A DNA stretch of 64,000 nt from Halichondria panicea (lineage: Eukaryota; Porifera; Demospongiae; Suberitida; Halichondriidae). Both the position numbers and the translations under genes were made by a program. The stretch lies in the NCBI RefSeq assembly GCF_963675165.1, contig NC_087388.1, forward strand, positions 5,861,651 to 5,925,650. The letters are read 5' to 3'. This document shows, piece by piece, positions 10,216 to 63,974 of the stretch. Position 1 is the stretch's first letter; every line of letters starts with the position of its first letter. The notes beneath the pieces were generated by a model. The model ran no database searches, was not told the DNA's origin, and saw only the letters and a list, made by a program, of their open reading frames with translations.

Positions 10216-13200
10216 ATGTCTGAGTCAGCTGAGTACAAAGCATTCAAGGATTGTCACAGCAGTCTTCTTACTTGTATTAAGCAGTCTCCTAAAGATGTCT
10301 GTGATCATTTACTCCCTTTCGAGATCCTAGCACCGAACGATCGAGATTATCTTAAGAATGACCACCATGATGATGGTGACAAAGCTCGACGAATACTTGA
10401 TGCTGTGCTACTTCAGATAAAAAATGATCCACAGGTTTTCCATTCATTTGTTAGTGCTCTTGAAGCAGCTGGTAGGTTTACGAAGGCTGGTGTACAAGAA
10501 CTCAACCATGAATTACAGAGACGAAATCAAGAACAGTGCGATCAAACTCAAAGAATAGAAGATAATAGTGAGTTGTAATCCACTAAAAACCCAACTCATC
10601 GTCCATTTGATTGCCATTTGATTGCCATTTGATTGTCATGTGAAATAGCCAGTACCTGCATGGATGACATCGTAGATATTGAGTTACATCATGTAGGAGG
10701 ACCAGGAAGTTATGTGGCCAATTATGGCTTCATAATTATGCTTTACTTTATATGCTTTATATGCTTTATGTGGTTGCATAACTTTTACCTGGTTGAAGTT
10801 TAATATCGCCTCTAAAGCATAACTTTTAATAGTACTTAACAACATTATTATAGGCCTAACTCAACTCATGGTTCTAAAATCTGTGCAGGCTATGAGAACA
10901 GTCCAATGAGCCTACTACAACCATTACCCGGGTTAGCTGTGACTGAAGAAGCTGGGTCAGGTATTATAACTATGTCAAACCAAGTGTTAGAGTCCGTTCT
11001 TTTCTTCTTGTGTAGTTTTTGAGTTACCTACCATGGACGATGGAGATGGAGGGACACTACCTGATCCATTAGAGCACCCTCCTGATGACGCTGAAGTGGG
11101 AGCGGACCTCAGAGCAGCTGCAACAAGTCGACAAGTAGCACCCACTGGTATGTGATACATTTAATTATGATTATAACAATTATGACTGACTGATGTATTA
11201 TTATACAGCTGATTCATTTGGAGGACAATTGCTACAAACTTTCCAAAGTGAAGAAATTGAACAAGTCATTGAGCTTCTATCCCAGGCTGAAAGTCAGTCC
11301 ATTGATCTGATAGGTGTGTCTGATGCAGACGGCAAAACTCTCCTTCATCTTGCTTGTCGCAAAAACTGGATGGACTGGCATGGCATTGTGGGTAGCCTTG
11401 TCGAAAATCACCATTGTGATGTTGCAGCAGTGGATGAAGATGGGAACACACCCCTTCATGAGGTATATCAATGCGGCAATCTCCCATCCGTAGAGTACCT
11501 GCTTAGTCTACCTAGTTGTAATCCTGATGCAATCAACAAGCAGGAGTACACTGTACTGAGAATGGCCCTTGAGAAAAATGACAAGAAAACTGTGGCACAA
11601 CTTCTAGCGACAGGACGAGTTGATCCTAGAAAAGGTAGCTCATGCGGTCATACATACTCAGAATTGCTTGCAATGAATCAGCTCCAACCACAACCACAAG
11701 ATTACGATGGCTCAGCTCTTCAAATGGTGATCCAGTTTGCAGAATGCATGGAGGGTAACAATCACGTTCGCCAACCGTTCACTTCTTATTGCTTGCATAA
11801 AATGCTTCACAAGATCTTGAAGAATCGTGATCAAGTTACAATTACTAGAATAGTAGACCGCATTAAAGAGAACATGTTACCTCTTCCAGAAGAACCTGAT
11901 AAGATTCATAATTTGATTATTGATATTCAAAGCCTCTCAGACGAGTTTGACATACGTGGGGAGCCCACTAATGTTGTGGATATTCAAATAAGAAAGAAAG
12001 GTAAGTGAGTAGTAATTACTGTACGTGCAAAGTGTCATTACTCCACAGGAGGTAGAGAAATCTTTCAACGTGATATTCAACAAGAGAGCATAAACACAAC
12101 TCAGAATGTTACTGTTCCAGCTGATGTTGAAGATCAGGAAACATCTGACTACCCTAATGCAAGTGAGGTACTACCAAATGTTCAACATTCATATACTGAA
12201 ATATTTTATATCGTAAGAAAGGTGCATGTACGGTTATTACTTGATGCAGGAGAGTATGGGAAATACCCTAGGGCTTCAGAATTTCGTAATTCTAGCAGAT
12301 AATGAAGAACAGGAAATACCTGACTACTACTCTAATGCAAGCGATGAACTACCGATGTTGCAACCTTCACGTACAGAGGTACACTGTACTGCATGTAATG
12401 CATGATACTTTAGAAAAGGAATTAATGCAAGAATTAATTCATATAGAATTATGCTATAATTATAATAGCTACATTATGTAGTTTTTTTATGACACAATAA
12501 TTATGTTCTTCTTTGATCTTAAACAGGAGCAGAATACAACACAAAATGATGAGTGTTGCCAAATTACATTGAAAGCATGCGTATGCAGTTACTGTTGTTG
12601 TTTTATTGTCTCTTTAATTCTTGGAATATGCGGTGCAGTATTGTACGATGGCTATTCACTTGTTGGTACTACTAATGTGGTACAAATTCATCGGCAATCT
12701 GTGCCACTGATTGGAATACAGGATCCATCGACTAACTTTGTTAGGCTATCCGAAATAATTACTAGTGGAACAGACTTAGTTACCATTATCTTCTATAAGT
12801 TAAGCGATTGCTCTTCTTCAACTGCATTTATAGGCGTCGAGATCAATGAGATAATGACTGTAAACTTTAGCTCTCCAACTATCAAGAGCAAAGCTGTTAC
12901 TGAGTTGTATCTGGCAGGAAACACTACACTTACTGTAAATATCAATGTCATCCCCTCAACAAATTCTTTTACGGCCGTCGTTGTTTTTGACAATCTTAGA
13001 AACTACTTAAACTTCATTTCAAGCTCTTCGTTGGACAATTACTATTTTATGGATTGCATTGCTAACGAAACATCACAAACTAAGATCAATTTAATTTTCA
13101 ACAAAACATCGTACTACTATATTGGTTTGTACACAGACATTCCGACTGAAACTACTACTTTTACTGTACACATGGTTGGGACAATTCTTCAATATGACAT

Positions 13201-13492
13201 TACAAAAGGAAGCACTTTCTGCTTTATAAGCTCTCTTGATGATTTAAGTTGTGATTTTTCTCCGAATTCCAACCAGCAAACTTGTATTGTTGGTTCTGTG
13301 CCGCCTATATACACTGATACACCATTTGGAATAAGAAGAGCAACTGTAGAGTATTACACTGCTCTCAACTCAAATACAGCAACCAACACTTTATTTTTTA
13401 TTCCTTTAATGCTATCTTGTTTATGGGTTTGTTTTGTGGGCTGTTTTCTGGTAGTTATACCACCTCAGCAGCATCAGGCAGCACACAACTAA
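10216..13492 (+). CDS. Gene A: CARD, ankyrin repeats, two-helix membrane protein with novel ectodomain
   Basis: Exons 10216-10567, 10889-10960, 11016-11147, 11209-12000, 12049-12167, 12250-12378 and 12527-13492 join in phase to 853 aa. Residues 1-115 form a CARD-like death fold (DKARRILDAVLLQIKNDP, FHSFVSALEAAG). Two linkers follow (GYENSPMSLLQPLPG; LRAAATSRQ). The 264-codon exon carries three ankyrin repeats (DGKTLLHLACRKNW, DGNTPLHEVYQCGN, EYTVLRMALEKND) and a helical tail. The last exon has a Cys-rich juxtamembrane stretch (ACVCSYCCC, possible palmitoylation), helix 1 (FIVSLILGICGAVL), an ectodomain with N-glycosylation sites (NTT, NET, NKT) and signatures VVFDN, SYYYIG and CIVGSVPP, then helix 2 near the end (FFIPLMLSCLWVCFVGCFLV). 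Both termini should be cytosolic. Function unknown; a CARD-signalling receptor is an inference. Start chosen at the ATG conserved in paralogues B, E and I rather than 10195. Confidence 0.85.
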
Positions 13493-14128: not shown

Positions 14129-17100
14129 CTAAATTTGTGACTCGAATGAATTTGAATTCTGAAAGCTACGATGTCGCTTGGGACTGATTTGAAGTGAGTT
14201 TGTTGTGAACTTGGTGTTGGTTTTTATTTTGTAAAAGACTAGCACTAAAGACCACAGAAGAACGATTATAAAAAAACTTATCCAGAGTAAAATTATCAGT
14301 TCTTCTGTATATAGGAAGTTCGAATACGAATACAGTATTTCCGCTTCCGTTACTTCATTGGTAAAATTGCGTTTTGGAACAATTCCTATGATACACAACT
14401 TCGGTGTTACAGGAATGTATCTATCAAATACGACATTACATACTGTTGTGGATGATATCATAGAGCAAAGGCTTATAAAAGAATTTTTTGAATTTTCCTT
14501 ATTCCAGCCATTAATACGATATGATATGCTGTCGATGACGTTCAAATTGTCTTCTATGTGAACTCCAATAAAATAGTAACTACTCTTTTGGAGCGAGATG
14601 CTTATTGAGAAATTATCGTTCTTGATGCAGTACTCCATATAGGTAAACATCCAGGTTCCATTGTGCAAAAATGATTTATATTCGTCAACATTGTCAAAAA
14701 CTACCAAAACAACTGGGCATTCTGAGCTGTTATAGTTCGCTGATAAGTGAATTTCTAGCCTCAGAGAGACATTATATTGTGTGTAGAGCTCATAAATTGG
14801 AGTATTTTCTTCTGGAGTGAGTATTCCTTCCTCGTATATTGTGGAATTTTCTTTTCTGATATCATCACAATTGCTGATGTTGAAGTGAATTGAGATGTTA
14901 GTATTAGTGATCTCGTTAATTGTTAGTTGCTTTACATTCGGTCCGACTCGTGCTATAGGTAGTACTGATTGCTGGATCAGTTGAGTAATATGTACTGAAC
15001 CACCAAAAGGTTTTGATTCTTGGTCGTTGAGTATCGTGAAGGAGAGTGCACAAGCAAAAATTACCATTGTGAATAACACACCCATAACAAAGCACAAACA
15101 TATAGAAGCTGCTTTCCTCTCAATGATATTCAGAGTATGGCATTGACATATCTGTATAGGTTCAATGAAAAAGAAATGTGATACGTTATAAGTTATACAC
15201 CAGACACTGCATGCAATAGACATTAGCTCTTGTATTCACCTTGAAGCAAACATGACAGAAGTAGCTGGCCATGGCCTTCATGGTATCCCACTGCAATAAC
15301 AGTTATAATTATAGAGATACCACAATAACAGTTTTAAGATACCACTAGAATTAATTAGCTAATACTAGATCAAGCAAGCATAGACTATAGTAAGATTATA
15401 GCTATAGTTAGCAATCACAGCAAGGTGTCTAACAAATCAACGACCAGTGGTATTACAACTACAATACACATAATAAATGCTACTTCTTACCTGATGTTTT
15501 CGTTTTGAATTTATAAGGCCCTCCAAGTCTGAATCGTTGGGTTGTGTGTGGAGATCGGGAATGGAACCTCGCGGTATAGATTGCCATTGAAGAGAAGTCT
15601 TTGCTGGAGAACGAGGTGGATTGTATGTGGGAGGATTTTTTTCAGGAATTGTAGGATTTTTAATGCACTCTGAAGCTTTAGAATCTTTTGTCTGATCAAT
15701 TAAAGTGTACTGTTGATCTGGCTCTGAATCATCACTCTGAAGATTTCTTGATCGTATGGTACGGCCATACCTTTCAGCCCGGCTTTGATCTGTGTATGCA
15801 TGTGCATGCAGTTATTATATCACAGTGTGTATAATGAGCTGTGAGTATGATGTCAACCTACGTGGTAAACTGACACTGACTGCTGGTGAGGTACGTTCCA
15901 CTGTAGATACACCAGTCGTTGAATTGCAACTGTCCTCTTCAGTACTTGTGGATTCATCTGTAAGCACAATATACATGCATGCATGCATGTGCAGTCAAAA
16001 TCATTTTACCTGCACTTAGAGGCATTGGCAATGCATCTGTCAGTGTATTAATGCTTGTCCTGTGAATATCCTCTATCTTATTAAAATTCCCCATTGGAAT
16101 GTTGGCAAGTATTTCATCGCACTCGACCAGCCCTCTCAAAACGTTTTGATGTTGCTTTTGATGTGCAATGTTAAAGGCAGTTAATCCATCGTTATTTCTA
16201 GCATTGACATCACTGAGCTCAAGAAGATATTCGGCAGCTCCTTTGTTGTTGAATCGAGCAGCTGTGTGCAGAGGTGTGTCTCCATCTTCATTCACAACTG
16301 AGACATTATGATGGTGTGTTTTGACCAATTGGGTGACTAAGAGTCCCCATTTTGACCAATCCCAGCGACAGGCAAGATGGAGGAGGGTCATTCCATCACT
16401 GTCCCTGATTGAACTGACATCAACTGTCGGATCAAGCCCTATCAGTAAGGCTAAGGCAGAAGTCAGGTCACCACCATCTTGGCCAAACGCTTTTAGCAGC
16501 TTCTTTGTTGAATTAACTTCTGCCTGTACATACATGCAATGCCATGGTTTAGAAGTATATACAACTAGCTGTACAAGGTACAGAACAATTAAGACATGTA
16601 CACCATAAATGCAACCATGCACTTTAGTATTGTAAACCTAACGTGAATATACTTATCACCTTCAATATTAGATCTACTTGTCGACCGATTTTGACCTCAA
16701 TGAATGCATTTTCTTTCAGGTGCTGCATCTGTTTAGGACTCAATTGGCTGTATAAATGACTAAAACATGCTGGAACTCGAAACACCAGCTCTGTACAGCC
16801 TTCTTGAACATGCTTCAAATTCAGAACTTGATGTGGTAGTAGTTGTTCCCAGCATTCTATAAATACTAACTTCAAATGTTGAATTTGATCGTTGGTGATT
16901 GCATCAAAGTCAACATCGATCTTACATGTTATCTCCACTGATTCAATGTGAGACGGTTGAGGGCCAAAGTCATCAACAAATAAAAAGCATCGTCGATTAA
17001 CATATTGTCGAAAAAAACGTTCATATTTCTGTAATGCTTCATCATCTTCATATGGGAAAAGAACTTCTTCTCGTATTGCAGAAATAAGTGAGTAATTGAA

Positions 17101-18562
17101 CCAAGAGCAGAAATTATTCTGTAAAAACTCAATTAAATCATTAAAGCTGATAGCATCACAGAGTAAAATATGTTCAGAAGGGCTATGATACATTTGGTGA
17201 AAATACAAACCTTGTGGTGTTAACAACTTCTGAACGTGTTGCTTTAGTTGTGTAACATCATATTGTTTTTGTTTTTCCAGATTCATAATCGTGTTTGTAA
17301 GTAAGCTACAAAACTTTGAATGGATTTTTCGAGTTTCTTTATCTAGGGATTTCATGAAGAAGCTTTCAGAAATTTCTGTTGCTGAAACTGTATCGCTACA
17401 AGCAGTATCACGAGTGCATCTTTTAATTTGAGGTGGCTTGGAGCTTAAGCACTTATCTCTGCCAGTGACATGACCCAAGATAGTACACTTTCCACAGTCA
17501 CATTGGAAGCTAAAGAATTTAGAATCAGGTGCCGTGAGTGATGCAGATCCAGATGAGCTTGTACTGACGGACCTTGGTTGTAACTCTTCACCTGCCTGAC
17601 CTTCGTTATCTGCTATAACGAGGTGACAATTTATTGGCTCACTATCATGCATGGTGTGGTACAAACTACTGGATCAGTATAAATTATCTGATATATTTAT
17701 TGGCTCACTATAATTATTACGCATGTTGTATACAAATTATCTTATTCATCAGCCATGACAAGCCCAAACGGCTGGGGAAGGGTTGTAGCAGGTTTATTGG
17801 ATAGCTCTCATATCTTGTTAATCATGCAAAACCAGTGAATGCTTTGCACACACTTAAGTATATGCGACCCTTTTTACTCACGTGAAAATGCAACCTTTAC
17901 AAGCCTTATTAAAGTCAACCACTATATACAGTGTGCACAGTGACATTGCTCTCCTGAATTCTTTCTTCGATACATTTTTGCAGAAATGCCTTTATAGAAA
18001 GGTTTTCGTGGATTTAATTTTCGTGAAATAGCAGCCTTTTGCAGCATGCATGCATGCATGGGATATTAAGTTCGTGGTTATAACTGTTCGTGGTCCAGCT
18101 TAATCCGCAAAAACCACAAACATTTGCACCCTCGAAATATACCTGCTATACGATACATAGTGCAATACATGAGTTGAGTTTTCATAAAGCAATCTAGGAT
18201 TTATATTTATACAACCTACCTCCTATTCTTTGACTTTGATCGGACTGTTGATGTTGTCTCTGTAATGCATCATTGAGTTTTTGCACTGTAGCTTTCGTAA
18301 AACTACCAGCTTCTTCAAGAGCACTAACGAATGAATGAAAAACCAGTGGATTGTTTTTTATCTGGAGCAGCACAGATTCCATTATTCTTCGTGCTTTGTC
18401 ACCAGCATCATGAGTGTCATTCCTAAGATAATCTCGATCGTTTGGTGCTAAGATCTCAAAACGGAGTAAATGATCGCTGACATCTTTAGGAGACTGCTTG
18501 ATGCAAGTAAGAAGGCTGCTGTGACAGTCCTTGATTGCTTTGTACTCTGCTGACTCAGACAT
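14129..18562 (-). CDS. Gene B: CARD, CGKC domain, ankyrin repeats, PPxY linker, two-helix membrane protein
   Basis: Exons 18562-18220, 17609-16660, 16523-16010, 15957-15862, 15789-15491, 15290-15240 and 15151-14129 (minus strand) join in phase to 1091 aa. Order: CARD as in gene A (DKARRIMESVLLQIKNNP); a ~315-residue domain beginning FQCDCGKCTILG that I do not recognise by name, shared with gene C; three ankyrin repeats (DGMTLLHLACRWDW, DGDTPLHTAARFNN, DGLTAFNIAHQKQH); Ser/Thr-rich linker; linker with NPPTYNPP, a PPxY motif; helix 1 (ASICLCFVMGVLFTMVIFACAL); ectodomain with VVFDN, SYYFIG and LCIIGIVP and many NxS/T sites; helix 2 (LIILLWISFFIIVLLWSLVLVF) and a basic cytosolic tail. Convergent with gene A. 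PPxY binds WW domains; recruitment of a ubiquitin ligase is an inference. Confidence 0.85.
17990..18145. repeat. Diverged MITE-like sequence in gene B intron 1
   Basis: TTCGTGG/CCACGAA-rich imperfect inverted arms ending ATACCTGCTATACG, resembling the terminus of the element at 1520-1696. Contains a TGCATGCATGCATG run. Boundaries uncertain. Confidence 0.35.
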
Positions 18563-25190: not shown

Positions 25191-28100
25191 CTAAATAAAG
25201 TTTATAGTAAGAATAAAGGTTAAGTAAAAAATAAAAAAGAACATAATAATAATTATATTAATAATAATAAATATTATGAATTTGAGTGAATTTGAGTTAT
25301 GATGTGACTGTCGGCTGTGACGGATTTGAACTGATTTGTTGGTTTTCAGTTTCATGTAATAATTGTAAAAGATTGGCACTAAAAGCCACATGAGAAAGAA
25401 TATAATTAACATTAGCCACATAACAAGTGTTGAGAAGGTTGAATAGGAATACTGGAGTTCTGCTTTCCTTATTACACCACTAGCATTTCGTTTGGGAACA
25501 ACTCCTATGATACACAAATTTGGTGTGTCCAAAAAACTGTTAAAATTGTGATTACAAGCTGTTGTAGCTGTGGATGTTATTGAGCAAAGGCTTGTGAAGG
25601 AGCTAGTTGAGTTTTCCTCATTCTGGCCGTCGATAATATATGTTATGTTTCCCATAATATGTGAGTTGGCTTCAAAGTGAACACCCAAAAAATAATAGCT
25701 ATTTCCGGCAAGTATGATACTGATCGAGAAATTATCATTTTTGATGCAGTACTCCATATAGGTGAACGCCCAAGATCCATTGTGCAAAAAGGATTCGTAT
25801 TCTTTAACATTGTCAAAAACTACCAAAACAAATGGGCATTCTAGATCTGAGCTGTTATAGTTAGCTGATAATTGAATTTGCAACCTCAGAGAGACGTTAT
25901 ATTGTGTGTAGAGCTCATAAATTGGAGTATTTTCTTCTGGAATGAGTATTCCTTCTTCGTATATTGTGGAATTTTCTTTTCTGATATCATCACAATTGCT
26001 AATGTTGAAGTAAATTGGGATAATCTGAGTATTTGGGATCTCAGTGAGTGTTAGTTGTAGTACATTACCTCCGATCAGAGCTATAGGTAGTATAGATGGC
26101 TGGATAAGCTGAGTGATATGTACCGAGCCTTCATACACTCTGGGATTTGTTTCAGCATAGATTAGGGTGAAAAATAATGCTGCAAAGCATATTATCCCCA
26201 AAAAGAAAAAAAATCTGGATAGTCTTAGAGAGCTTCTTTGAGAGCTTTGTTCAGAGAATAATACCTGTAGTAAATGTTAGAACTTAAGGTATAGGCTAGC
26301 TAAGAAATGGACTGCATGCGTGCATCCAATAGCTATTTTACCTTGGAAATTACCTTCCCCCAATGATTGTCAACAATACTGATCAGGCATCCAGCACACA
26401 GGGTTTTTGCTGTTGAGGATACGGTATTCTGCAATGCATGTATGTACATAAATTATAGCTACATGTTATGAATTAGTATACACTGATGTAACTACATGCA
26501 TATATAGGTACTCATGGCATGCACTGATCTGAAAGCATGCACGACATCCTTAAGTGTATTGCACATACTAAACTTGGCACCTGTTTACCTGGTGTTCTTC
26601 ATGGGGTTGAGAATCATTACTTATAAGGGTTGTTTGGGAGTCTGAATCATCAGGTTGTGTGTGGAGATTGTTAATAGCTTCTGAATCTTGTTGTGAGGCG
26701 GGAGGCTGTTGGTTGCAATTGGTGATATATGCGGGAGGACGAATATATGGTAAATTGTATCTGGGAGGACCATTTTCATTTGATTCTAAGTAAGTTGGAA
26801 CAGTCGATAGCCTGGTACTTTCACTGTACTCCGGTGGATTATTAGTCTCATCATCATTATCATCATCAAGCTTGGACTTTAAAACAGGAGGTGGTGTATA
26901 ATGTTGACTTGGCTCTGAATTATCACTCCGAAGATTTCTTGATCTTATGGTAGAGCCATGCCTTTCAACCCGACTTTGATCTGTGTACATAATATAAGCG
27001 AATGCATTACACTCCAAGTGATACATGAATAGTGTGTGTACATTTAACAACCTACGGGATAATGTAGATATTGATGAGAGATCTTCCTTTGTAGAAGATA
27101 CATCCGGTACTAACTTCAAATTGTCCCCTTGGGGGCTGGTAGATTCATCTGTGAGCACAACACACATGCATGTTTAAAATCAAACGGTCTGTATTGTTAT
27201 ATATGCTTTACCTGCGCTGGATGACATATTTGAGTCACTGCTTGTCCTGTATATGGGTTCGTCTGACTGAAAAACTTCGGTGCTGATTATTGGGATGTTG
27301 GCAAATATTTCATCACACTCGACCAACACTCTCAAAACTTCTTGATGTTGCTTTTGATCTGCAATGTTAAAGGCAGTTAATCCAACGTTATTTCTAGCAT
27401 TGACATCACTGAGCTCAAGAAGATATTCCGCAGCTCCTCTGTTGTTGAATCGAGCAGCTGTGTGCAGAGGTGTGTCTCCATCCTCATTCACAACTGAGAC
27501 ATTATGGCGGTGTGTTTCGACCAATTGGGTGACTAAGAGTTCCCACTTTGACCAATCCCAGCGACAAGCAAGATGGAGGAGGGTCATTCCATCACTGTCC
27601 CTGATTGAACTCACATCAACTGTCGGATCAAGCCCTATCAGTGAGGCTAAGGCAGAAGTCGGGTCACCACCATCTTGGCCAAACGCTTTTAGCAGCTTCT
27701 TTGTTGAATCACCTTCTGCCTGTAAAGTTTAAGCGCTAGAATACATATACATTGTTTAGAAGTACAGCTAGCTGCATTAGAATATAAAACAAGGTACTTA
27801 TGTACCACTTCAGTATGTACAAGTCTAGTGAATATAGTTATTACCTTCAATATTACTTGTTGACCAATTTTGACCTCAATGAATGCATTTTCTTTCAGGT
27901 GCTGCATTTGTTCAGGACTCAACTGGCTGTAAACATGCCTAAAATAAGCTGGAACTCTAAACACCAGCTCTGTACAGCCTTCTTGAACATGCTTCAAATT
28001 CAGAACTTGGTGTGGTAGTAGTTGTCCCCAGCAATTCACAAAAACTAACTTCAATTTTTGAATTTGATCGAAGGTGATTGCATCAAAGTCAACATCGATC

Positions 28101-31100
28101 TTACATGTTATCTCCACTGATTCAATGTGAGACGGTTGAGGGCCAAAGTCATCAACAAATAGAAAACATCGTCGATTAATATATTGCTGAAAGAAATGCT
28201 CATATCTCACTAAAGATGGATCATTTTTATTCGAGAAAAGAAATTCTTCTCGTATTGCGGAAATGAGTGAATAATTGAACCAAGAGCAGAAATTATTCTG
28301 TAAGTAGTCAGACAATTCGCTAAAACTGGTAACATCACGGATCAGAATCTCTTCAGAAGGTTTGCGATAAATTTTGTTGAAATACGATCCTTGTGGTGTT
28401 AAAAGTGCCTGGACGTACTGCTTCACTTTAGTAATGTCATATTGTTTTTCCAGATTCGTAATCGTGTTTGTGAGTAAGCTACAAAACTTCGAATGAATGT
28501 TTTGTGTTTCATTATGTAGGGCTGTCTTGAACGTACTATAAGAGATTTCTGTGGATGATACTCTGTTTTCACTACAAGGAGTGTCACGAGTGAATCTTTT
28601 AATTTGAGGTGGCTTGGAGCTTAAACACTTATCCCTGCCAGTGACATGACCCAAGATGGTACACTTTCCACAGCCGCATTGGAAGTTAAAAAATGTCCGA
28701 TCTGTATTAGAATCAGAAGCCGTGAGTGATTCGATTCCAGATGAGCTTGTACTGACAGATCTCGGTGTTAATTCTCCACCTGCTTGATCTTCGTAGTCCA
28801 CTGTGGCAGAATGCATCTTGTCATATTAAGCGAATGGAGGCACATGCAATAAAATCTCACTATAATTGTAAGTGGTACCAAGGGCGTATAAAGAGAAGAG
28901 AGCATGCAACTACAATCTATCATATTATAAATGGACGGAGGCGTATGTCTAAAATACACAAAATTTATTGCATGTGCACTTTATACTCTTCGTCTATTCC
29001 CTAGTGGGCGGTTGGCTAAATACCTGCTGACTCATCAATAATATGACGCATGTATACACAGTATACATTACGAGTTGCATGCGCCCTCTCTCTTCTTATA
29101 TATAGGCCCTTGATGATTAATTTATAGTTGCACTTACTGGTTGCAACAATCCTCTGTGGTTCTACTGGAACTTCAGTTTCTGCATGCAATTGCAATACAA
29201 AAACTCATACACAATTTATAGCGTAAACTGTAGCTATAATAATACTGCATATGAATTACACCATGAGTTCAGTACGCAACTCCAATAGTATATAGAATGC
29301 CAAATAGGTCTAAAATACATCCCACTCATTCGGATGTCCCACATGCTACATCAATCTTTACCCGCGGCCATGCCCAACTAAGAACAGTTTTATATACAGT
29401 ATTATCAAATAGGATTGAGGAGAGGGTAGCCGATAGATGTCAAGTAGCCGATAGATGTCAAGTAGCCGATAGATGTCAAGTAGTGTATACGTGGGTAGTA
29501 GTGTGGGACACCCAAATGAGTGGGATGTGTTTTTTTGGCGTTCCATACAATAGACTGTACACAAAAGGTATTCAGTCTGCCTAAGACCCCCATTATTTGC
29601 AAGACAAGACAACATACCACAAATATTTCATAAGGATGACATCATAAAACAGTGTTTCATATAGCCTTGATTCCAGGCCGCAAAGAGAAAGGCAGCCTGG
29701 TATACCTATGCGCATGCGCGAAATAGTTGACAGCAATTTCATCATAATTATACAAATTCTAAAAAAAACGGACAAAGTTACAAAAAGGAAGAATACGTAT
29801 GACAATGTGACCACAATGGCAGCTTTCAGAGACACTTAATCAAAGTAGAATAATTATGCTGCAGCAGTGTTGCTTCTTTTAGCTCTGTTTATCAAAGAGA
29901 GAGTTCAAGAAGGCCTCCCAAACAGCTAGAGCTGCCAGCTGGGAAGAGTGGTGCATGGACTCTTTAATACATCAGTAGATCTTGAGTGAATAACTTCCTG
30001 AGTGTCAAGCACGTTAAAGCTCATTAAAAGCTTTCAGGAATGATCATTAGCTTCTTTATCTTCAGCAATGACTATCTTGTCGAACATAAAGGCAAGATTT
30101 GGTAGCAGAAGACTTGCCTGGTCCATATTACCACAGCCTCATCAGGGGACCCACAGGAACACATCATGCCTTTCCTATAACATCTGTAGACTTACAGTGT
30201 AGGGTGTCGTTAAGTAGAGACTTGGCTTAATACAATAAAGGGGGTAAGAACTCAGTCGTCTCTTTGCACAATACTTCTAAATAAGTTCTATGTAACGGAC
30301 TGTAACTTCAGAATACAAACAGTATACGGTTTATTTTACTGACAGTATCCACAAATACACGGACTACCCCGGCCCTTTTTGGGGTAATGTACGCGCATGC
30401 GCCAGTGGCGTAGCTAGGATTTTGGGAAGGGCAGGGCTCAAATCCGTTGAGCAGGGCCAGAGCAGGCGCTGAATAGCAGCAGTAAGCATGCGCAGTAGAT
30501 GGCCCTGCCTACATTTACATTTCCATTGAATGACATCATTCTAGTAACTACGCATTTGGAGTTGATGAAGCACAAAAGGGGGGGGCTCTAGCCCCGTCAG
30601 CCCCCCTCTGCCTATGCCACTGTGTGCCTACTAGGTATAACAGGCCGCCTTTTTCTTCGTGGCTGGAATCGAGGCTATGTTTCATAATGATACCCCGAAA
30701 ACTCTACCAGATTGTAGTGAAGGGTGATTTTTTTCTAAATTTCCAAAGCTCATAACACTGAACTCGAACTTGTTTCTAGGAGATGAATTAGGAATGTGTT
30801 GACTCAGCAAGTTTAAGATTAGTGTGAGCAAAAAGTCAAAGTTAAGCTCTTTCTGAATAGTCTTTGTGGTTGGTGGAACTCATGGCTAGCTGCATATCTC
30901 CAGATGTGAAAGGAACCATGCAGTGACTGCCAGTCTCTAACGTATCAACTAGTGCATCTGATGCATGTGATGCTTTGCAGCAAGCTAGAAGGCTTGAAGT
31001 CATTCACGATGTGTTCTATGCTATTGCCAAATTGTGTATTAATGTCAAAGTTTGTGTAACTGCTTTGCAAACACGTTCATTTGTATGGCATTTACCTTAT

Positions 31101-37518: not shown

Positions 37519-37764
37519 ATGATAAACTACACGACTGTTTATCCTGAAACTGAAAATAATAATGTTATTGCACATAACAAAATAAAGAAATTAGAAGTGC
37601 ACTGTTTGCCATGGTTATCAGTAGTAGTAGCAATAGTAGTAGTAGCACTAGTAGTTGGTCTCGGAGGTACTATGGCAACAACACACAGTTCATCTTTTTC
37701 ATCAGTCATACTAGTAGATATAGTGAAATGGTACAGCGGACGATGTTATCGCCATAAAAAATGA
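37519..37764 (+). CDS. Small single-pass membrane protein, hypothetical
   Basis: An 81-codon frame from ATG 37519: a polar N-terminus, a strong hydrophobic helix (WLSVVVAIVVVALVVGLGG), a Ser/Thr stretch and a basic tail. It could be an exon of a gene such as an ectodomain family member, since it has no homologue I know. A damaged duplicate lies at 51671-51800 with a 5 bp insertion that breaks the frame. Coding status uncertain. Confidence 0.35.
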   Translation: MINYTTVYPETENNNVIAHNKIKKLEVHCLPWLSVVVAIVVVALVVGLGGTMATTHSSSFSSVILVDIVKWYSGRCYRHKK

Positions 37765-37869
37765 CAGTGCACGTACTCAAAGATTTCTCCGCAATCTCAT
37801 GAATATTATATTGGTGAGAAATTCCAGAGATGCGTAGATTGATGGTAGTAGGTACAATAGTAGTACAGA

Positions 37870-42515: not shown

Positions 42516-42692
42516 ATAACTTACAAGCCACAAACAGAATTGTTATGTAACCACAAGGAAATTTACTCACTATGATGCAAAACCACAATTACATCATTTG
42601 AAGCCAAATTTGTAGTCTTATAGACGTAGACTGAGTACCTAAGATTGGGGGTGGGGTTCACTCACCTAAAAGCTCACTTACTGTCAAGCGTC

Positions 42693-49441: not shown

Positions 49442-51024
49442 GCCAAGAACTAAATGAGTCACCCCGGTGTTGTAACTGTTGTACTCGTATTAGTGTAACT
49501 TTCAGTGTTACATTGATTGGCTTAATTGCCCTTGCTGTCTACTCTTTCACTCCACAAAAAGGTGAGTGTGCATGGATGGTACAATGTACATGTACGTACA
49601 GCGATTTTCAGAGTTCTTGCATCTCAATGTCTAGAGCGGAAGTACCTGTCACGTGATATTTTTGTAACATTACATCACACTAACATTAATATTGCTGAGT
49701 CAGGCAAGTGTTTTTACTCTGACTTGTAAATTTTCGATCTATTTAGTACTAACTAGAGACTACTGAAAATAGGAGTGTAGCTTCCCAGTATTAAAGAACT
49801 GTTTGAAGTGGCTTTACCCGGCCTGTCCGCTCATTTTGTTTTGCTGCAAGCTATTAAATGAGAGTCATATGGACATCAAAATCTGTCTTAGCTCCAGACG
49901 TCCAGTCCTGTGTGTCTAGTAGTAGTAGCTCACAAAACTATTGGAACTGCTCAAAGATATAACTTTCAGCTTCAGCTAGCTAGAGCTAGCTGTGGTGCAA
50001 AGATTTGCAAAGCCTTCCTAGATCGATTTTCTCCCAGCTTAACGCAAATCGAGAAAACTTGGTTTTGAATGGCTAGTGTATTACGTAACCATTCACGTGA
50101 CAGGTACTTCTGCTCTAGACACTGAAATGCAAGAACTCTGAAAACCGCTGTATGTCCTGATATAAATTATAATTGGGGGTGGGGGCAATAGTATCTATTG
50201 TAGAGCATGCAGTGTTTACCAGAGGAGGAAGGACTCATTTTACCTTATAGGCACTAATTTATTGTAACAGTTTAATGAACTTCTTTGAGCGTTTCATCTT
50301 TTTTCTTTATAAATCCACATGTTGGACACATATTTCCATCTTATTTCGATTATGGATGTTTCTTTAGCCTTTGCAGATCCTCCACCTCTTGAAATGGCCA
50401 CAATCCCTCCCAGATATTTTACCACTGCAGACCCGCCTAAAACCGCACCCTCTGTAATACCAGCCTACACTGGCAAGCTAACTGGCACTATCATTACTAG
50501 AGGTATGCAATTGCAGTACCATTCAACTTAATAGCATCTTGATATTTATGAGCGTAATGATAGCCCATAGTATACATCACCTTCATCAGATCTCCCATGC
50601 ACTCCTTAGCTCTTTCACTGGGAGTACTCTATTTTTCACAACTGCTATAATTATAGTATTAATTTTTGCACTGTGTTCTATTATACATGTAGGTGATCGT
50701 CCTAAAATGACACAGCTTCGTAGCTTCAAACTGAGGACTGGAAAAACAATCGATTTCGCCTCCAATATTGTCCTTGACTACAGAAAAGTGGGCCAACTTT
50801 TGCTTGAAGGATCCAATGACGTTGATATTCTAGAAACGAGTCATCATCATGAAACCAAGGATATTGCTGATAGAATTCTAAGGGACTGGCTGAGTGGGAA
50901 AGGCAAACTCCCTGTTACATGGGGAACATTGATTGACGTTATAGAAGAGTCTGGTTTGAGTAGTTTAGTATATGATATTGAAGGTCAGCTGTCAGATCTA
51001 CATAGAGATCATGATGAATTGTAG
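49442..51024 (+). CDS. Gene G: single-pass TM protein with C-terminal DEATH domain
   Basis: Exons 49442-49561, 50377-50502 and 50693-51024 join in phase 1. The first encodes a Cys cluster (RCCNCCTR) and a membrane helix (ISVTFSVTLIGLIALAVYSF). The second is a Pro-rich linker with a PPRY motif. The third is a DEATH domain (IVLDYRKVGQLLLEG, IADRILRDWLSG, LPVTWGTLIDVIEESGL). The 5' exon with the start codon was not found; no in-frame ATG lies before the acceptor at 49441. It lacks the family ectodomain, but lies within the cluster and shares the Cys-rich juxtamembrane and PPxY themes. DEATH domains recruit partners by homotypic contact; the pathway here is unknown. Confidence 0.7.
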
Positions 51025-51283
51025 GCATTTGTAAACGTATATATATAGAACAATGTTTGTGTGCAAATTATAATTATGGCCAAATACCTATCTACGTAGG
51101 TATATCTTAATAATTAGTGAGTCGGGGCCATGCAGTGACAGACGCGCAGTTGGAGTCAAAGAGATCAGCCATAGTTTCTAAAATTCAATCTGTGAAAAAT
51201 TAATTACTACATCAGCTACTCATGATAAGCTGATGTGTGTGAAGGCAAGTTTAAATTTGCAAATATAGAAACTATAATTGCAG

Positions 51284-51800
51284 ACCATAATCACATTTAG
51301 GGGGGAGAGGATTATTAAGAGGGCAGCGTATAGGGAATGTTTTGAAGCCTGCAAAGGTAGTCATGCCTTGAGGCTTAAATGCAATTATGTGACCAAGAGG
51401 CATTAATAACCATCCCTGCCGGTAGATGAATACAGCATGTAGCCACCAAGATATAGCGTGGGAGTCATGCAATAGATGCAGGGATTCATTTACTATTCAT
51501 GTGTGTATACGTATAGATATAGATCTAAGCAAAACGATTCAAGTATAGTGACATCATGCATGTACTCAGTTTTGTTTGTATATAATTATAAGAGTAATTG
51601 ATTCACATTGTATATAGGCAATCACTAAAATTAATAATGCATAATTATATAACATAGTGCAATATAATTATGATAAACTACACGACTGTTTATCCTGAAA
51701 CTGAAAATAATAATGTTATTATATTGCACATAACAAAACAAAGAAATTAGAAGTGCACTGTTTGCCATGGTTACCAGTAGTAGATTTAGCTACAGTGCAT
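51284..51800. repeat. Duplicate of 37390-37640
   Basis: Matches the region leading into the small membrane-protein frame at 37519, including ATGATAAACTACACGACTG and AGAAGTGCACTGTTTGCC. A 5 bp insertion (ATATT) shifts the frame and the helix codons are lost. Confidence 0.7.
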
Positions 51801-52024
51801 CCAGCTTAGAGAGTAGATTACCACAAATTTGTGAGTAGCTGTACTTAAATGTAAATATCTTTCGATTGGAACATTTCTAAGAAATGGTGTTGATACCAAT
51901 GTGTAGGTGAATGACCAAGCTACAACATACTCAAAATGTTTCCATGGAAACATAAGGTGGTGGGTTTGTGGTGATTAATAGAACAACAGCAAATTGTTAT
52001 AGTGGGTAATCGGTTAGAGTAATA

Positions 52025-53723
52025 AAACAGTAATCTTGTACAGATAGTGACCCAGTTTGCAGAATGTATGGAGGGTAGCAATCATGTTCGCCAACCGTTC
52101 ACTTCTTATTGCTTGCATAAAATGCTTCACAAGATCCTGAAGAATCGTAATCAAGTTACAATTCCTAGAATAGTAGACCGTATTAAAGAGAACATGTTAC
52201 CTCTTCCAGAAGAACCTGATGAGATTCATGATTTGCTTACTGGTATTCAAAGCCTGTCAGACCAGTTTGAGTTTGTATGTGGGGAGCATACTAATGTTGC
52301 AGATATTCAAATAAGAAGGAAAGGTAAGTGAGTAGCTATACTGTATGTGCAAAATGTCGCATTACTCTACAGGAGAGACAGAAGTCTTTCAACAACAAGA
52401 GAGTATAAACATCCCTTAGAATGTTACAGTTCCAGCTGATACTGAAGATCAGGAAACATCCGATTACTCTAATGCAAGTGAGGTACTACCAAATTTGTTT
52501 TATATTGTAAGAAAAGTGTACAGTAAAGTACTATTACTAAACACCCCTCAGAATTTCGTGATTCCAGCAGATAATGAAATACCTGGCCACCACTCTAATT
52601 AATGCAAGCAGCAATAAACTACCGTTTTTGCAAACATCACATACAGAGGTATACTGCATGTAATGCATGATGCATGTGCACATTAGTATAGGCAAGAATG
52701 TAGTTTTTTTATAATACGATAATTATGTGCATTTTATGTTCTTCTTTGATCTTAAACAGGTGCAGAATACAACACAAAACTATGAGACAAATGAATGTTA
52801 CCAAATTACATTGGGAGCATGCTTTTGCAGTTGCTGTTGTTGTTTTATTGTCTCCTTAATCCTCGGAATATGTGGTGCAGTATTGTACGATAGATATTTA
52901 CTCGTTGGTACTACTGATGTGGTACAAATTCACCGGCAATCTGTACCACTAATCGCAATACAGGATCCATCGACTAACTTTGTTAGGCTATCCGAAATTA
53001 GTGGAACAGACTTAGTTACCATTATCTTCTATAAGTTAAGCGATTGCTCTTCTTCAGCTGCATTCATGGACGTTGAGTTCAATGAGATGGTGAATGTAAG
53101 CTTTAGCTCTCCAACTATCAAGAGCAAGGCTGTTACTGAGTTGTATCTGGCAGAAAACACTACACTTACTGTAAATATCACCACCAATGTGCCCTCAACA
53201 AATTCTTGTTTTATAGCTCTCGTTGTTTTTGACGATTTTACCAATTACTTAAACTTCATTTCAAGCTCTTCGTTGGACAATTACTATTTTATGGATTGCA
53301 TTGCTAACGAAAAATCACGAACAAAGATTTTAATGTTCAACAGACCATCGTACTACTATATTGGTGTTTATACAGATTTTCCAACTGAAGCTACTACTTT
53401 CTCTTTACACTTGGTTGGTTGGGACATATCTTCAATATGACACTTCAGAAGGGACCCCTGTCTGCTTTATAAGCTCTCTTGAGGATTTAAGTTGTGAGTT
53501 TTCTCCGAGTACCAACCAGGAATTTTGTATTGTTGGCTTTGTGCCACCTGCTAATCAGCAATTTGGAATAAGAGGAACAACTGTAGAATATTACACTGCT
53601 GATAACTCAGATACAGCAATAAACACATTTTTTTTTATTCCTCTAATTTGCTCTGTTTTTGGGTGTTGTCTTCTGCTATGTTTTATTAGTTGTACAATGT
53701 ATAGACCAGACCAACGCCAGTGA
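52025..53723 (+). pseudogene. Gene F: 5'-truncated family member, disabled
   Basis: Starts mid-ankyrin exon (TQFAECMEGSNHVRQPF, as gene A from 11728), then 52373 onward (linker), then the helix-ectodomain exon from about 52759. Lesions against gene A: TAG at 52417-52419 where A has CAG; a tandem TTGG at 53411-53418 shifting the frame in the ectodomain. Otherwise well preserved (CCCCFIVSLILGICGAVLY, SYYYIGVYTDFP, FCIVGFVPP, helix 2 at the end). No CARD or first ankyrin part is upstream. With gene E it could be the two halves of one broken locus. Confidence 0.8.
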
Positions 53724-54207: not shown

Positions 54208-55884
54208 TTATAACAAAATAAATACTGATATCAAACTTAAAAATATTAGAAGTGTAGTGCAAGCCATCGATCTTAAAGCAGCTGCTTCAACTACAGCAAG
54301 AAGACAAAATTCAGTTGAAGTTGAAGCCTCCAAAATCTCTAGTTGAATTGTACAATTGTCCACAGAGTTATAGGTTTCACATTTACCATACAAATTATTC
54401 CTAAGTTTCTTGATATCATATTTATACACAGTTCCAGAAATCTTAATATTAAAGGTGAATTCGTTTGTAGATGTATAAACGTACAGACCAGTAGAGTAGT
54501 ACGAATTCTTCTTAAATATTACTGTTTTGGATGTTTTATAGTCATTAATGCAGATCACACTGAGCGAGTTATTATGTACTCCAGCGTCAAAAAACTCCAA
54601 ATAAAGTTCTTGATCATCGAATATTACTAGAACAGCTAGACAGTCTGAAGAATTTTTAGGGATACTAAATGATGTATGAAACACAGTAATACTGTACGAC
54701 AGAGTAGTCCCACTCAAATAATATGCTTGATCTATATGTTTGCTTGAGGTTAGTTCTGAATATGTTGTCTTCACTTTAACCATGTTGATGTCATCACCTT
54801 GACAGCCAGTAAGAAAGAATACCATGATAAATCCGTAGTAAATAATCACATTTGGATGATTATCCCAACTTTCCGATAAAATAACTCGTATGTCTAACGA
54901 GTCATATGCACCACTTAGGGTTAATTTTTGAACAAAGATCACAGATATAGGGCTGGCAGTGGATATACACCAGTATATCTTATAGTATATCTATCTGGCA
55001 TGCCCTTGGTATTCAAAGCACATAGTTCTGTTCGAATAATCCCTTTTATCATCTGCTGATACTCAGTACTCGGTTCTATTAGAATAATCCTCGGCTGATA
55101 CTCGGTACTCAAAGTACTCGGTTCTGTTTGAATAATCTTCTGCTGATACTCAGAGGGTTTTAATGTTGTACCCTGTGTGATAGCCAAAAAAAAAGCCCAA
55201 CTAGGATCAAGATGAAAAATAGTAAACAAATATTGTTATCGACCTCCAGCTTAATAATAGGTTGATTGATTCCTGCTTTGATTCCTGCTACGTTGACCTA
55301 TATATATATACATTATGTTGAAATGCAGTTAATTTATAGTATAATTATACTGAAACATAAAACAAGTCTGTCTACATGTCATCCCTAGCCTCGATCCCAG
55401 GCCGAGTTTTCGCTTTTATAACGGTTAGGCGAACCAGTTGTTCGCCTAACCATTATAAAAGCGAAAACTCGGCCTGGGATCGAGGCTAATGTCATCCCAT
55501 AATTATAACTACTATCATTGACAATCTACAAGTTAGATTCTGGGATTGATTATACAACTCACATTGTTCTAATTAATTTTGTCTCTGTATAAATGCATCA
55601 TCGAGTTTTTGCACTGTAAACTCCGTAAAATCACCAGCTGTTTTAAGAGTACTAACGAATGAATGGAATACCTGTGGATTATTTTCTATCTGACTTGCCA
55701 CAGCATCAATTATTAATCGTGCTTTGTCACCAACATCATGAGTGTCATTCCTAACATATTCTTGATTGGCTGGTGCTAGGAACTCTAATATCTTATCACT
55801 GACATCTTTAGGAGACTGCTTGATGCAAATAAGAAGACTACTGCGACAGTCATTGAATGCTTTGCACTCTGCTGACTTAGACAT
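54208..55884 (-). pseudogene. Gene I: CARD, TM, family ectodomain, disabled
   Basis: CARD exon 55884-55563 (CIKQSPKDVSDKILEF, FHSFVSTLKTAGDF) and helix-ectodomain exon 55272-54208 join in phase 1. Lesions: TAA in the CARD exon after RQN (about 55573-55575); a frame break at a nine-base A-run (55186-55194, plus strand) inside helix 1 (ICLLFFILILVGLFF); another near 54945 before the ectodomain. The stalk carries three imperfect repeats (EYQQKIIQTEPST). The ectodomain keeps VLVIFDDQELYLEFF and SYYSTG, with a terminal helix (CTTLLIFLSLISVFILL). The intron contains the foldback at 55386. A CARD-only product of about 103 aa could still be made. Confidence 0.75.
55386..55488. mobile_element. Perfect foldback of the TAGCCTCGA family, 103 bp
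   Basis: TAGCCTCGATCCCAGGCC and its exact inverse, continuing inward with almost no unpaired centre. Flanked by ATGTCATCCC on both sides (55376-55385 and 55489-55498). Inserted in the intron of gene I. The near-perfect arms indicate a young insertion. Confidence 0.85.
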
Positions 55885-56149
55885 AATGCTTCTTGATAGT
55901 AAGGCCACACAAAGTCAATTTGTACTTTTAAAATAATAATAATATTCATATAATTTTTAATTGAAACACACCCCCAACTTCCTCAATAAGCGGAAGTGCA
56001 TAATTATTTTTCTGTGATCTCTCATTATCTACTTGATAGAGCAAAACAATCTCTTCTTTTATCTATGCTTCAGTGTATTTCTGAAATTTGAAAGCCATGG
56101 TATACATGGCGACTTAATTGCTGAAGTGGTTTCAGGCCTTTCTAATGAA

Positions 56150-58982: not shown

Positions 58983-59308
58983 CTACAACTCATGACATAT
59001 TTTACACTTTCCTCTCAGCAATGCATTGTTGAGTATTTGCGCGGCAGCCTTCGGAAATCCATCAGTTGCTTCAAGTGCACTAACGAATGAATGAAAAACC
59101 AGTGGATCATATTCTATCTGAAGCAGCACAACATCAAGTATTCGTCGTGCTTTGTCACCGTCATCATGAGTGTCATTCCTATGATCTCGATCGGCTCGTG
59201 CTAAGATCTTAAAAGGGAGTAAATGATCACTGACATCTTTAGGAGACTGCTTAATACAAGTAAAAAGACTGCTGTGACAGTCGTTGAATGCTTTGTACTC
59301 CGCTGACT
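58983..59308 (-). pseudogene. Gene J: solitary CARD, start codon lost
   Basis: A full CARD frame (SAEYKAFNDCHSSLFT, DKARRILDVVLLQIEYDP, FHSFVSALEATDG). The conserved ATG-TCT-GAG start of its paralogues is replaced by TTG-TCT-ATA and no upstream in-frame ATG is seen. One residue of the ILAPNDRDYL helix is lost (ILARADRDHR). It stops after LRGKCKICHEL; no linker or membrane exon follows. Divergent from K, 172 bp apart. Confidence 0.7.
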
Positions 59309-59480
59309 TTATAGACAATCTATGTTTTAGATCTAGATCTATCTACATGCAGTCATGCATGCAGGAAGTGAAATAATTAATATGTGTAATTGAGAGGTGT
59401 GTGCTTAGCCTTTGTCTTTGGTCAGATATATGAAAGGGAGTGGTTTCCAGTCTATAGATCTATTTACTGGCATATGCATC

Positions 59481-59807
59481 ATGTCTGAGACAGCCCAGTA
59501 CAAAGCCTTCAAGGACTGTCACAGCAGCCTTCTTACTTGTGTTAAGCAGTCTCCCAAAGATGTCAGCGATCATTTACTCCCATTTGAGATCCTAGCACCA
59601 AACGATCGAGATTATCTCAAGAATGACACTCATGATGATGGTGACAAAGCACGAAGAATACTTGATGCTGTGCTGCTCCAGATAGAAAACGATCCACGGG
59701 TTTTCCAATCATTCATTAGTGCTCTCAAAGCAGCTGGTAGTTTTACGAAGGCTGCAGTACAAAAACTCGACTCTGCACTACAGAGACGAAGTCGGTGTGG
59801 TGGATAG
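59481..59807 (+). CDS. Gene K: CARD-only protein
   Basis: 108 aa from ATG 59481 (MSETAQYKAFKDCHSS), intact CARD (DKARRILDAVLLQIENDP, FQSFISALKAAGSF), ending LQRRSRCGG at TAG 59805. The gtgagt donor of its paralogues is gone, and the exon now ends in a stop. CARD-only proteins in other animals act as decoys that block CARD assemblies; such a role here is inference. Alternatively an untranslated duplicate fragment. An earlier in-frame start at 59412 is less likely because the 59481 ATG matches the family. Confidence 0.55.
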   Translation: MSETAQYKAFKDCHSSLLTCVKQSPKDVSDHLLPFEILAPNDRDYLKNDTHDDGDKARRILDAVLLQIENDPRVFQSFISALKAAGSFTKAAVQKLDSALQRRSRCGG

Positions 59808-62054: not shown

Positions 62055-62086
62055 TTAGTAAATATGTGTTCTCACTGTAAAGTATA

Positions 62087-63974
62087 ATGTGTGAGTCAGC
62101 TGAGTACAAAGCATTCAAGGACTGTCATAACAGTCTTCTTACTTGTATTAAGCAGTCTCCTAAAGATGTCTGTGATCATTTACTCCCTTTCGAGATCCTA
62201 GCACCGAACGATCGAGATTATCTTAAGAATGACCACCATGATGATGGTGACAAAACTCGACGAATACTTGATGCTGTGCTACTCCAGATAAAAAATGATC
62301 CACAGGTTTTCCATTCATTCGTTAGTGCTCTTGAAGCAGCTGGTGGCTTTACGAAGGCTGGTGTACAAGAACTCAAGGATGCATTACAGAGACAACATCA
62401 GCAGTGCGATCAAAGTCAAAGAATGGAAGAGAACCGTGAGTTGTAATGCCCCCCAAAAAACCCAACTCATGGTCCATTTGATTGCCATTTGATTGCCATG
62501 TGATATAGCCAGTACCTGCATGGATGACATCGTAGATATTGAGTTACATCATGTAGGAGGACCAGCTGCAGGAAGTTATGTGGCCAATTATGGCTTCATA
62601 TGCTTTATGTGGTTGCATAACTTTTACCTGGTTGAAGTTTAATATCGCCTCTAAAGCATAACTTTTAATAGTACTTAACAACATTATTATGGAGGCCTAA
62701 CTCAACTCATGGTTCGAAAATCTTTGCAGGCTATGAGAACAGTCCAATGAGCCTACTACAACCATTACCCGGGTTAGCTGTGACTGAAGAAGCTGGGTCA
62801 GGTATTATAACTATCTCAAACCAAGTGTTAGAGTCCGTTCTTTTCTTCTTGTGTAGTTTTTGAGTTACCTACCATGGACGATGGAGATGGAGGGACACTA
62901 CTTGATCCATTAGAGCACCCTCCTGATGACACTGAAGTGGGAGCGGACCTCAGAGCAGCTGCAACAAGTCGACAAGTAGCACCTACTGGTATGTGATACT
63001 ATATAACAATTATGACTGATGTATTATTTACAGTTGATTCATTTGGAGGACGATTGCTACAAACTTTCCAAAGTGAAGAAATTGAACTAGTCATTAAGCT
63101 TCTATCCCAGGCTGAAAGTCAGTCCATTGATCTGATAGGTGTGTCTGATGCAGACGGCAAAACTCTCCTTCATCTTGCTTGTCGCAAAAACTGGATGGAC
63201 TGGCATGGCATTGTGGGTAGCCTTGTCGAAAATCACCATTGTGATGTTGCAGCAGTGGATGAAGATGGGAACACACCCCTTCATGAGGCATATCAATGTG
63301 GCAATCTCCCATCCGTAGAGTACCTGCTTAGCTTACCGACTTGTAATCCTGATGCAGTCAACAAGCACGAGTACACTGTACTGAGAATGGCCCTTGAAAA
63401 GAATGACAGAAAGTCTGTAAGAAATCTTTTAGCGACAGGACGAGTCAATCCTAGGAAAGGTAGCTCATGTGGTCATACATATCCAGAACTACTTGCAATA
63501 AATCAGCTTCAACCACAACCACAAAATTACGATGGCTCAGCTCTTCAAATGGTGACTCAGTTTGCAAAATGTATGGAGAGTAGCAAATGCAGTATTTGCC
63601 CGCCTTTCACTTCTTATTGCTTGCGAGATACCCTCCATAAAATCTTGAAGAATCGTAATCAAGTTTCAATCCCTAAAATAGTAGATTGTATTAAAGAGAA
63701 CATGTTGCCTCTTCCAGCAAACCCAGACGAGATTCATGATTTGCTTGTGGATATTCAAAGCTTGTCAGACGACTTTAACATACGTACTAATGAATTAGGG
63801 GAACTTCAAGTTCAAAGAAGAGACACAGCTTTAAGTATGTTACAGTAGCTCTATTGCATTATAACTATAACTGTGTCATAATTATGTATACAGGATATGA
63901 GAGCTATCCAGTGAGCCTGCTACAACCATTTCCTATGATGTCTGGATTTGTCATAGCTAATGAAACTATATCAG
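62087..63974 (+). CDS. Gene L: CARD-ankyrin paralogue of gene A, continues past the window
   Basis: Exons 62087-62435 (CARD; DKTRRILDAVLLQIKNDP), 62730-62801 (GYENSPMSLLQPLPG), 62857-62988 (DLRAAATSRQ), 63034-63834 (three ankyrin repeats: DGKTLLHLACRKNW, DGNTPLHEAYQCGN, EYTVLRMALEKND) and 63894-63974. All junctions are phase 1 and open. The fifth exon is a second GYESYPVSLLQPF linker placed after the ankyrin exon, unlike gene A, so exons have been shuffled or duplicated. The conserved ATG-TCT is ATG-TGT here. The membrane part should lie beyond 64000; which type follows cannot be seen. Confidence 0.8.

Follow-up and report, generated by a model that had tools for sequence, protein, structure and literature searches.

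A tandem gene family in the sponge Halichondria panicea pairs CARD heads with an ectodomain between two membrane helices

We analysed a 64 kb stretch of the Halichondria panicea genome (the window; NC_087388.1, positions 5,861,651 to 5,925,650, forward strand), which carries a tandem family of genes whose products pair a death-fold head, usually a CARD, with an ectodomain between two hydrophobic helices. Our results confirm this CARD-headed two-helix gene family in the window. Four of its members, genes A, B, C and D, are complete, as an initial annotation had proposed (Table 1): when their exons were spliced in silico, all introns were GT-AG, the exons were in phase, and each frame ran to a single stop without frame conflict. 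Helix 1, the ectodomain and helix 2 lie together within the single last exon of each gene. The annotation counted ten or so copies; the tandem arrangement stands, but an ectodomain is present in only seven window units, namely the complete A to D, unit H with an intact ectodomain frame, unit F, whose frame is broken by a 4-bp TGGT duplication, and a broken copy at 37.5–38.4 kb. In unit H, a frame stop directly follows the CARD. The heads at 42.7–44.1 and 62.1–63.8 kb are followed by other heads, with no ectodomain behind them.

Table 1. Members and fragments of the family in the window (positions within the 64 kb)
Feature	Span	Strand	Exons or parts	Product	Layout or remark
Gene A	10216..13492	+	7 exons: 10216-10567, 10889-10960, 11016-11147, 11209-12000, 12049-12167, 12250-12378, 12527-13492	853 aa	CARD type a, linker, ankyrin, helix 1, ectodomain group I, helix 2
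Gene B	14129..18562	-	6 exons: 18562-18220, 17609-16660, 16523-16010, 15957-15862, 15789-15491, 15151-14129	1074 aa	CARD type a, middle domain, ankyrin, helix 1, ectodomain group II, helix 2
Gene C	25191..32804	-	7 exons: 32804-32468, 29179-29138, 28800-27845, 27719-27212, 27148-27056, 26980-26589, 26264-25191	1133 aa	CARD type b, middle domain, ankyrin, helix 1, ectodomain group II, helix 2, third hydrophobic C-terminal stretch
CARD fragments	33801..34133
Broken ectodomain	37542..38421	-	three frames		group III
Gene D	39498..41440	+	4 exons: 39498-39828, 40018-40089, 40154-40346, 40408-41440	542 aa	CARD type b, linker, helix 1, ectodomain group I, helix 2; without ankyrin
Head, CARD type a and broken ankyrin	42684..44141	+			followed on the same strand by the death-like head of F
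Unit F	50482..53720	+	death-like head 50482-51021; ankyrin exon remnant ~52026-52328; ectodomain 52826-53687		ectodomain group I, frame break ~53420
Unit H	54211..55914	-	CARD type a 55576-55893; hydrophobic stretch ~55172-55260; ectodomain 54211-54990		ectodomain group III, hydrophobic C-terminus
Two solitary CARD type a exons	59010..59789	-, +	59010-59315 (-), 59475-59789 (+)		back to back
Head, CARD type a and ankyrin	62081..63845	+			followed on the same strand by another ankyrin and another CARD; no ectodomain directly behind

The window belongs to a larger cluster. Joined to adjoining sequence, it forms a map of 264 contiguous kb of C12 (the joined map) in a genome of 131 Mb. On the map, 39 ectodomain units fall into groups I (12), II (8) and III (19); the frame is intact in 25 of them. 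The tandem family and its death-fold heads are supported. Ectodomain matches in the whole genome (queries A, C and a paralogue on C6; E up to 0.001) are confined to C12:5.87–6.18 Mb and a single place on C6, with at least nine more units outside the 264 kb. A fourth query, the copy P0028, searched at E up to 10, gave 43 places and no ectodomain site beyond C12 and C6. Segmental duplication has been recent: eleven aligned pairs of 2.5–13.5 kb and 94–99% identity lie inside the 264 kb, for example window 27295-37441 against joined map 203421-213536 (99.2%) and another of 13.5 kb at 98.2%.

RefSeq models, which are evidence at the level of gene models, join the same parts. P0038 (1080 aa; joined map 67357 to 72412, just right of the window) runs from CARD through middle domain, ankyrin and helix 1 to ectodomain, and P0023 opens partway through an ankyrin exon and has an ectodomain at its end. 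With the in-phase models of A to D, the RefSeq models that link CARD to ectodomain agree with the earlier reading of one protein per gene. P0039 (1105 aa; LOC135345381 X4) combines a C-type head with the ankyrin and ectodomain exons of B (16523-14132), skipping B's own CARD and middle exons; it matches the window exons letter for letter except at intron-split codons, and it has one exon that our model of B lacks (15293-15240). P0040 comprises CARD, middle domain and ankyrin without an ectodomain, its rear exons lying at 202–204 kb of the joined map. P0039, P0040 and a duplicate at joined map 208897-203971 all carry the same head exons as C (32804-27845), with identical sequence, so that C is the likely, not the sole possible, source of the P0039 head. 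Apparent cross-unit splicing of a C-type head to the B tail is a model-level observation, because it comes from RefSeq models and not from reads.

The full set contains 48 CARD stretches, of which 29 are near-complete and 27 distinct once two identical copies are removed. Pfam CARD (PF00619) matched 21 of these 27 at E < 0.1 (best 1.3e-5). A profile scan of the genome passed the cut-off at seven cluster loci, two of them only with neighbours in frame, one of which is the CARD of C (window 32529-32771). The heads fit the CARD profile, and a PDB profile search listed ICEBERG, caspase-1 and NOD1 among their matches. Two CARD types, a and b, are 16–21% alike between types in A to D, and CARD relatives are spread widely over the genome. 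The CARD assignment of the initial annotation therefore holds at profile level; its DEATH assignment, for the head at 50482, is weaker. That head has no Pfam Death (PF00531) match and a PDB match to TRADD at E 0.021. A C11 locus 48% identical to it exceeds the Pfam Death cut-off, and we describe the head as death-like.

Ankyrin repeats in the heads are strong (Pfam, E 2.4e-20). Genes B and C carry an additional, unnamed domain missing from the earlier domain list, a middle domain of about 300 residues (window 16636-17643 and 27824-28816, both minus) with the motifs FxCxCGxCT and CSWFNY. Searched from B and C, it matched nothing in PDB (E up to 1) and nothing credible in Pfam. Its 54 genome matches lie on many chromosomes, and at least twice it stands beside a CARD match in an equal-length open frame (C17:637657-638745 and C1:5908723-5909694). 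Because relatives of both the CARD and the middle domain occur widely in the genome, the ectodomain alone is peculiar to the family.

The ectodomain shares the motifs V-[FY]-D-[ND]-x3-[YF]-x2-F, SYY-x2-G and C-[IL]-[VIL]-G-x-[VI]-P, found in six, six and five of the ten ectodomain frames of the window and in none of its 872 other frames of at least 35 aa. All three are present in A, B, C and D, and in F across the frame break, much as first described, but H has only SYYxxG in strict form. By hydropathy, each of A, B, C and D has two hydrophobic helices, in line with the proposed pair of flanking membrane helices. In that gene order, the loop between them measures 256, 249, 243 and 258 residues and the C-terminal tail after helix 2 measures 11, 37, 59 and 10. 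Sequon density in the loop (27 in 1006 residues) is 3.9 times that outside it (17 in 2444; Fisher p 1.2e-5). Part of this excess is composition, since loops shuffled with their composition kept averaged 17.4 sequons and reached 27 in 19 of 2000 shuffles. The sequence outside the loop is not sequon-depleted (17 or fewer in 507 of 2000 shuffles). Among 14 aligned ectodomains, three cysteine columns are kept in all 14, two in 13 and one in nine. Sequon bias and conserved cysteines together support a predicted lumenal or extracellular placement of the loop.

In three group III copies on the minus strand of the joined map (113358-114413, 124011-125201 and 196317-197522), a helix comes first, then a stalk rich in Thr, Ser and Pro, then the ectodomain; the closing hydrophobic C-terminus has a short tail at most and may represent a GPI signal. 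The topology of BST2/tetherin offers a comparison: it likewise has an N-terminal helix, a stalk, an ectodomain and a hydrophobic C-terminal end, a likeness in layout.

In a Pfam scan of 38 ectodomain members no match was seen above the cut-off; the best was APD1-4_M (E 1.5e-4), followed by one at E 0.0044, and PDB sequences gave no match at E up to 1. Scattered matches to DUF6980, DUF4751, DUF5643 and viral families (E 0.004–1) were set aside as chance. Structure prediction, proposed earlier as a check, returned AlphaFold2 ectodomain models (pLDDT 84.9 and 80.5) with a beta sandwich resembling GOLD, SIDT1 and PPC domains. Ranked by Z, the group II model was closest to a p24 GOLD domain (10.1; 96 of 99 residues, 3.0 Å), and SIDT1 and SEC14-like GOLD regions matched it by structure as well. 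These sandwiches share 2–14% identity with the ectodomain, its flanking strands are barely covered by the structural matches, and none of the members scanned had a Pfam GOLD or PPC match. The top Foldseek match was birnavirus VP2 (E 1.1e-5 and 8.6e-5), and a viral library also gave capsid resemblance; with query TM-scores of 0.19–0.27 and an rmsd of 13.5–16.6 Å, we attribute this to the common jelly roll and reject a viral capsid kinship. The ectodomain had been called unrecognised, with a known Pfam family named as what would overturn that description. It was nearly right: no Pfam family was seen above the cut-off and no PDB sequence matched, but the modelled fold resembles GOLD-like sandwiches and there is a sub-cut-off likeness to APD1-4_M.

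APD1-4_M was the most frequent Pfam match in the ectodomain (5 of 38 members). At E up to 1 it matched eight of the 15 group I copies scanned, or five of 12 when the three chosen as known matches are left aside; the 15 exclude the stop-bearing L002, L003 and L017 as well as L007 and P0023. The best match, in P0028, scored 22.4 bits against a cut-off of 25 and spanned profile positions 7–107 of 108. Alignments fall on the C-terminal half of group I ectodomains and end at helix 2; the scanned proteins of groups II and III and of C6 had no match. Clustered genes at C8:5.48-5.61 Mb and C17:1.90-1.92 Mb contain 12 loci over the APD1-4_M cut-off, each closely preceded by an APD1-4_N match (over cut-off at nine loci, below it at three). 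None of the 43 genome places matched by P0028 lies on C8 or C17, which counts against kinship with APD. Beside the C8 and C17 genes we found no RING among 150 of 474 candidates scored, no Death among 150 of 503, and no CARD among all 57.

APD ligases are two-helix proteins with a RING. The plant APD1-4 E3 ligases (PF16040/PF16041) bear this RING, whereas the cluster proteins lack it and have an N-terminal CARD/ankyrin head instead; the Pfam matches listed for the ectodomain exons include no RING, and the tails after helix 2 are only 10–59 residues long. A table in one source places APD in a group described as having at least one transmembrane domain (PMC6118397). We regard the case for the ectodomain as a far relative of the APD1-4 domain as evenly balanced.

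Heads and ectodomains differ in which genes they liken. A and B are 82% identical in the CARD and 28% in the ectodomain, A and D 21% and 60%, and C and D 44% and 26%; B and C are 16% identical in the CARD, 78% in the middle domain, 85% in the ankyrin and 69% in the ectodomain. Genes A to D cover all four pairings of CARD type (a, b) with ectodomain group (I, II), and the same four recur across the 264 kb when each ectodomain is assigned its nearest upstream head. Descent without exchange of parts cannot easily yield all four pairings, and we conclude that heads and cassettes were exchanged between units.

Selection was estimated from pairs with dS of 0.03–1, using near-complete ectodomain copies (8, 7 and 8 in groups I, II and III). 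Median dN/dS was 0.51, 0.42 and 0.60 for ectodomain groups I, II and III, 0.43 for CARD a, 0.22 for CARD b, 0.40 for ankyrin and 0.48 for the middle domain. Values below 1 mark these parts as coding sequence under constraint. None of the 24, 21 and 26 ectodomain pairs in groups I, II and III exceeded 1, nor did any head pair, which gives no sign of diversifying selection over whole domains. Two overlapping segments of group I near helix 2 reached 1.15 and 1.04, and the most relaxed stretches lie at and beside the helices. This pattern argues against the idea of a hypervariable surface for allorecognition.

The C6 paralogue (C6:5875500-5886500; splicing read by eye) keeps the layout of the cluster genes, beginning with a death-like head and continuing through middle domain and ankyrin to helix and ectodomain. 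Its head matches Pfam Death at E 0.087–0.1, under the cut-off. Because it keeps the part order at about 30% ectodomain identity, the CARD/death-ankyrin-ectodomain architecture seems older than the cluster. Protein searches named only Halichondria panicea (LOC135345411, LOC135345382, LOC135345381 and LOC135345405) and one Fusarium ankyrin-type protein; absence from other sponges is not established by these searches, since one of them scored only 7988 candidates, those sharing most words.

We propose that the cluster encodes a family of two-pass membrane proteins, greatly expanded in this one sponge, and that they may act as receptors; we give this explanation as a whole an even chance. By sequence, an N-terminal CARD or death-like head, often with ankyrin and in one subfamily the middle domain, is joined to the single-exon cassette of helix 1, ectodomain and helix 2. 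Head and tail would both be cytosolic, with the ectodomain facing the cell exterior or the lumen of an organelle. Clustering of ectodomains by a ligand, by a neighbour or by each other would bring the cytosolic CARDs together. In known family members CARD clustering suffices to seed filaments and to recruit caspases or adaptors. The clustered sponge CARDs might likewise nucleate a filament and recruit a CARD or death-domain partner, such as a caspase or an NF-kB type adaptor, and the ankyrin and middle domains would provide docking sites for partners. Exchange of heads and cassettes would give one output many inputs, and the ectodomain-less units and RefSeq isoform could serve as dampers.

Several observations weigh against this proposal. 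A ligand, a localisation and a signalling partner are all postulated, and ligand sensing by the ectodomain, already suggested by the initial annotation, may or may not be its role. GOLD-like folds occur in cargo and trafficking proteins too, and the ectodomain dN/dS medians do not look like those of a hypervariable recognition surface. Among the 39 ectodomain units of the 264 kb, 14 are broken or partial, and the ectodomain of P0038 ends at two thirds, before helix 2. The CARD of A is slightly below the Pfam cut-off (23.1 versus 23.9). Sin3 PAH domains stand in the same list of 25 PDB matches as ICEBERG, one of them ranked first; because only 30–45 residues matched, we take them as helical-bundle noise.

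The strongest alternative is that the proteins are endomembrane adaptors, in which a GOLD- or APD-like ectodomain, like that of p24 or the APD ligases, is a lumenal sorting or membrane-stress domain and the head reports the state of an organelle and not an external ligand. The p24 GOLD domain as the top-Z structure for the group II model, the SIDT1 and SEC14-like GOLD matches, the sub-cut-off APD1-4_M matches and an ectodomain that is conserved and not hypervariable all suit such a role, which we consider possible yet distinctly less probable than a receptor. The cluster might instead supply dominant-negative or decoy regulators that mainly tune other CARD signalling, for example by NLRs. Heads without an ectodomain directly behind them at 42.7, 59.0–59.8 and 62.1–63.8 kb, the ectodomain-less P0040 and the early stop after the CARD of H would fit; still, 25 of the 39 ectodomain units have an intact frame, and 23 near-complete ectodomain copies are under purifying selection, which head-only decoys would not need, and we find this role unlikely. 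Equally improbable in our judgement is a combinatorial receptor locus, at which cassettes and heads of neighbouring units would be mixed both in evolution and by cross-unit splicing to give many sensor-output pairings; if real, it would use an ectodomain family that, to our knowledge, occurs in no described immune receptor. Finally, that CARD, ankyrin and ectodomain exons sit on different transcripts and are joined in appearance only is hardly credible: transcript evidence is at model level and one RefSeq model (P0039) spans two units, but every junction in the four genes is GT-AG and in phase, P0023, P0038 and P0039 link ankyrin-exon sequence to ectodomain, P0038 and P0039 start with a CARD, and the C6 paralogue keeps the part order.

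The receptor proposal can be set beside known death-fold proteins. TNFR-family death receptors, TLRs and NLRs likewise use death-fold signalling at the membrane or in large sponge repertoires; the cluster proteins differ from them in having an N-terminal head and two helices. Pfam scans of P0038 and of pieces covering CARD, ankyrin, middle domain and ectodomain, a set that leaves the linkers of A to D outside, listed no TNFR, TIR, LRR or NACHT. Known CARD proteins are cytosolic or, like MAVS, have one C-terminal anchor, and we know of none with an ectodomain between two helices. The MAVS-like layout, a single C-terminal anchor and no ectodomain, does not describe A to D, with two helices and a loop of 243–258 residues. 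We rate the family as a variant of the death-fold membrane receptor, seen so far in Halichondria panicea only.

A receptor survey of Halichondria panicea screened TIR, Ig, NACHT, LRR, C-type lectin, SRCR and GPS/7TM domains (PMC8242945), and a survey of Dysidea covers NLRs with CARD or DEATH (PMC12909245); the accessible portions of these two papers do not describe the cluster family. Judging from those portions, the screen of PMC8242945 would miss it, because the ectodomain has no good Pfam match. No description was found in searches of the open-licence PMC literature, which suggests a receptor family hitherto undescribed. If the cluster proteins signal, an animal phylum that branched early would have a membrane-to-CARD route free of TIR, NACHT and TNFR parts, and the exchange of heads and cassettes would make the evolution of receptor wiring directly testable.

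Other genes lie next to the family in the window. An IF-3 gene (8176-9009, minus; IF3_N, E 3.2e-13) adjoins the cluster, and an apparent partial copy of its 5' end, alike by eye and without a Pfam match, lies inside the cluster at 23383-23769 (minus). To the left of the cluster, positions 4634-5152 (plus) encode a protein kinase domain (E 1.1e-10).

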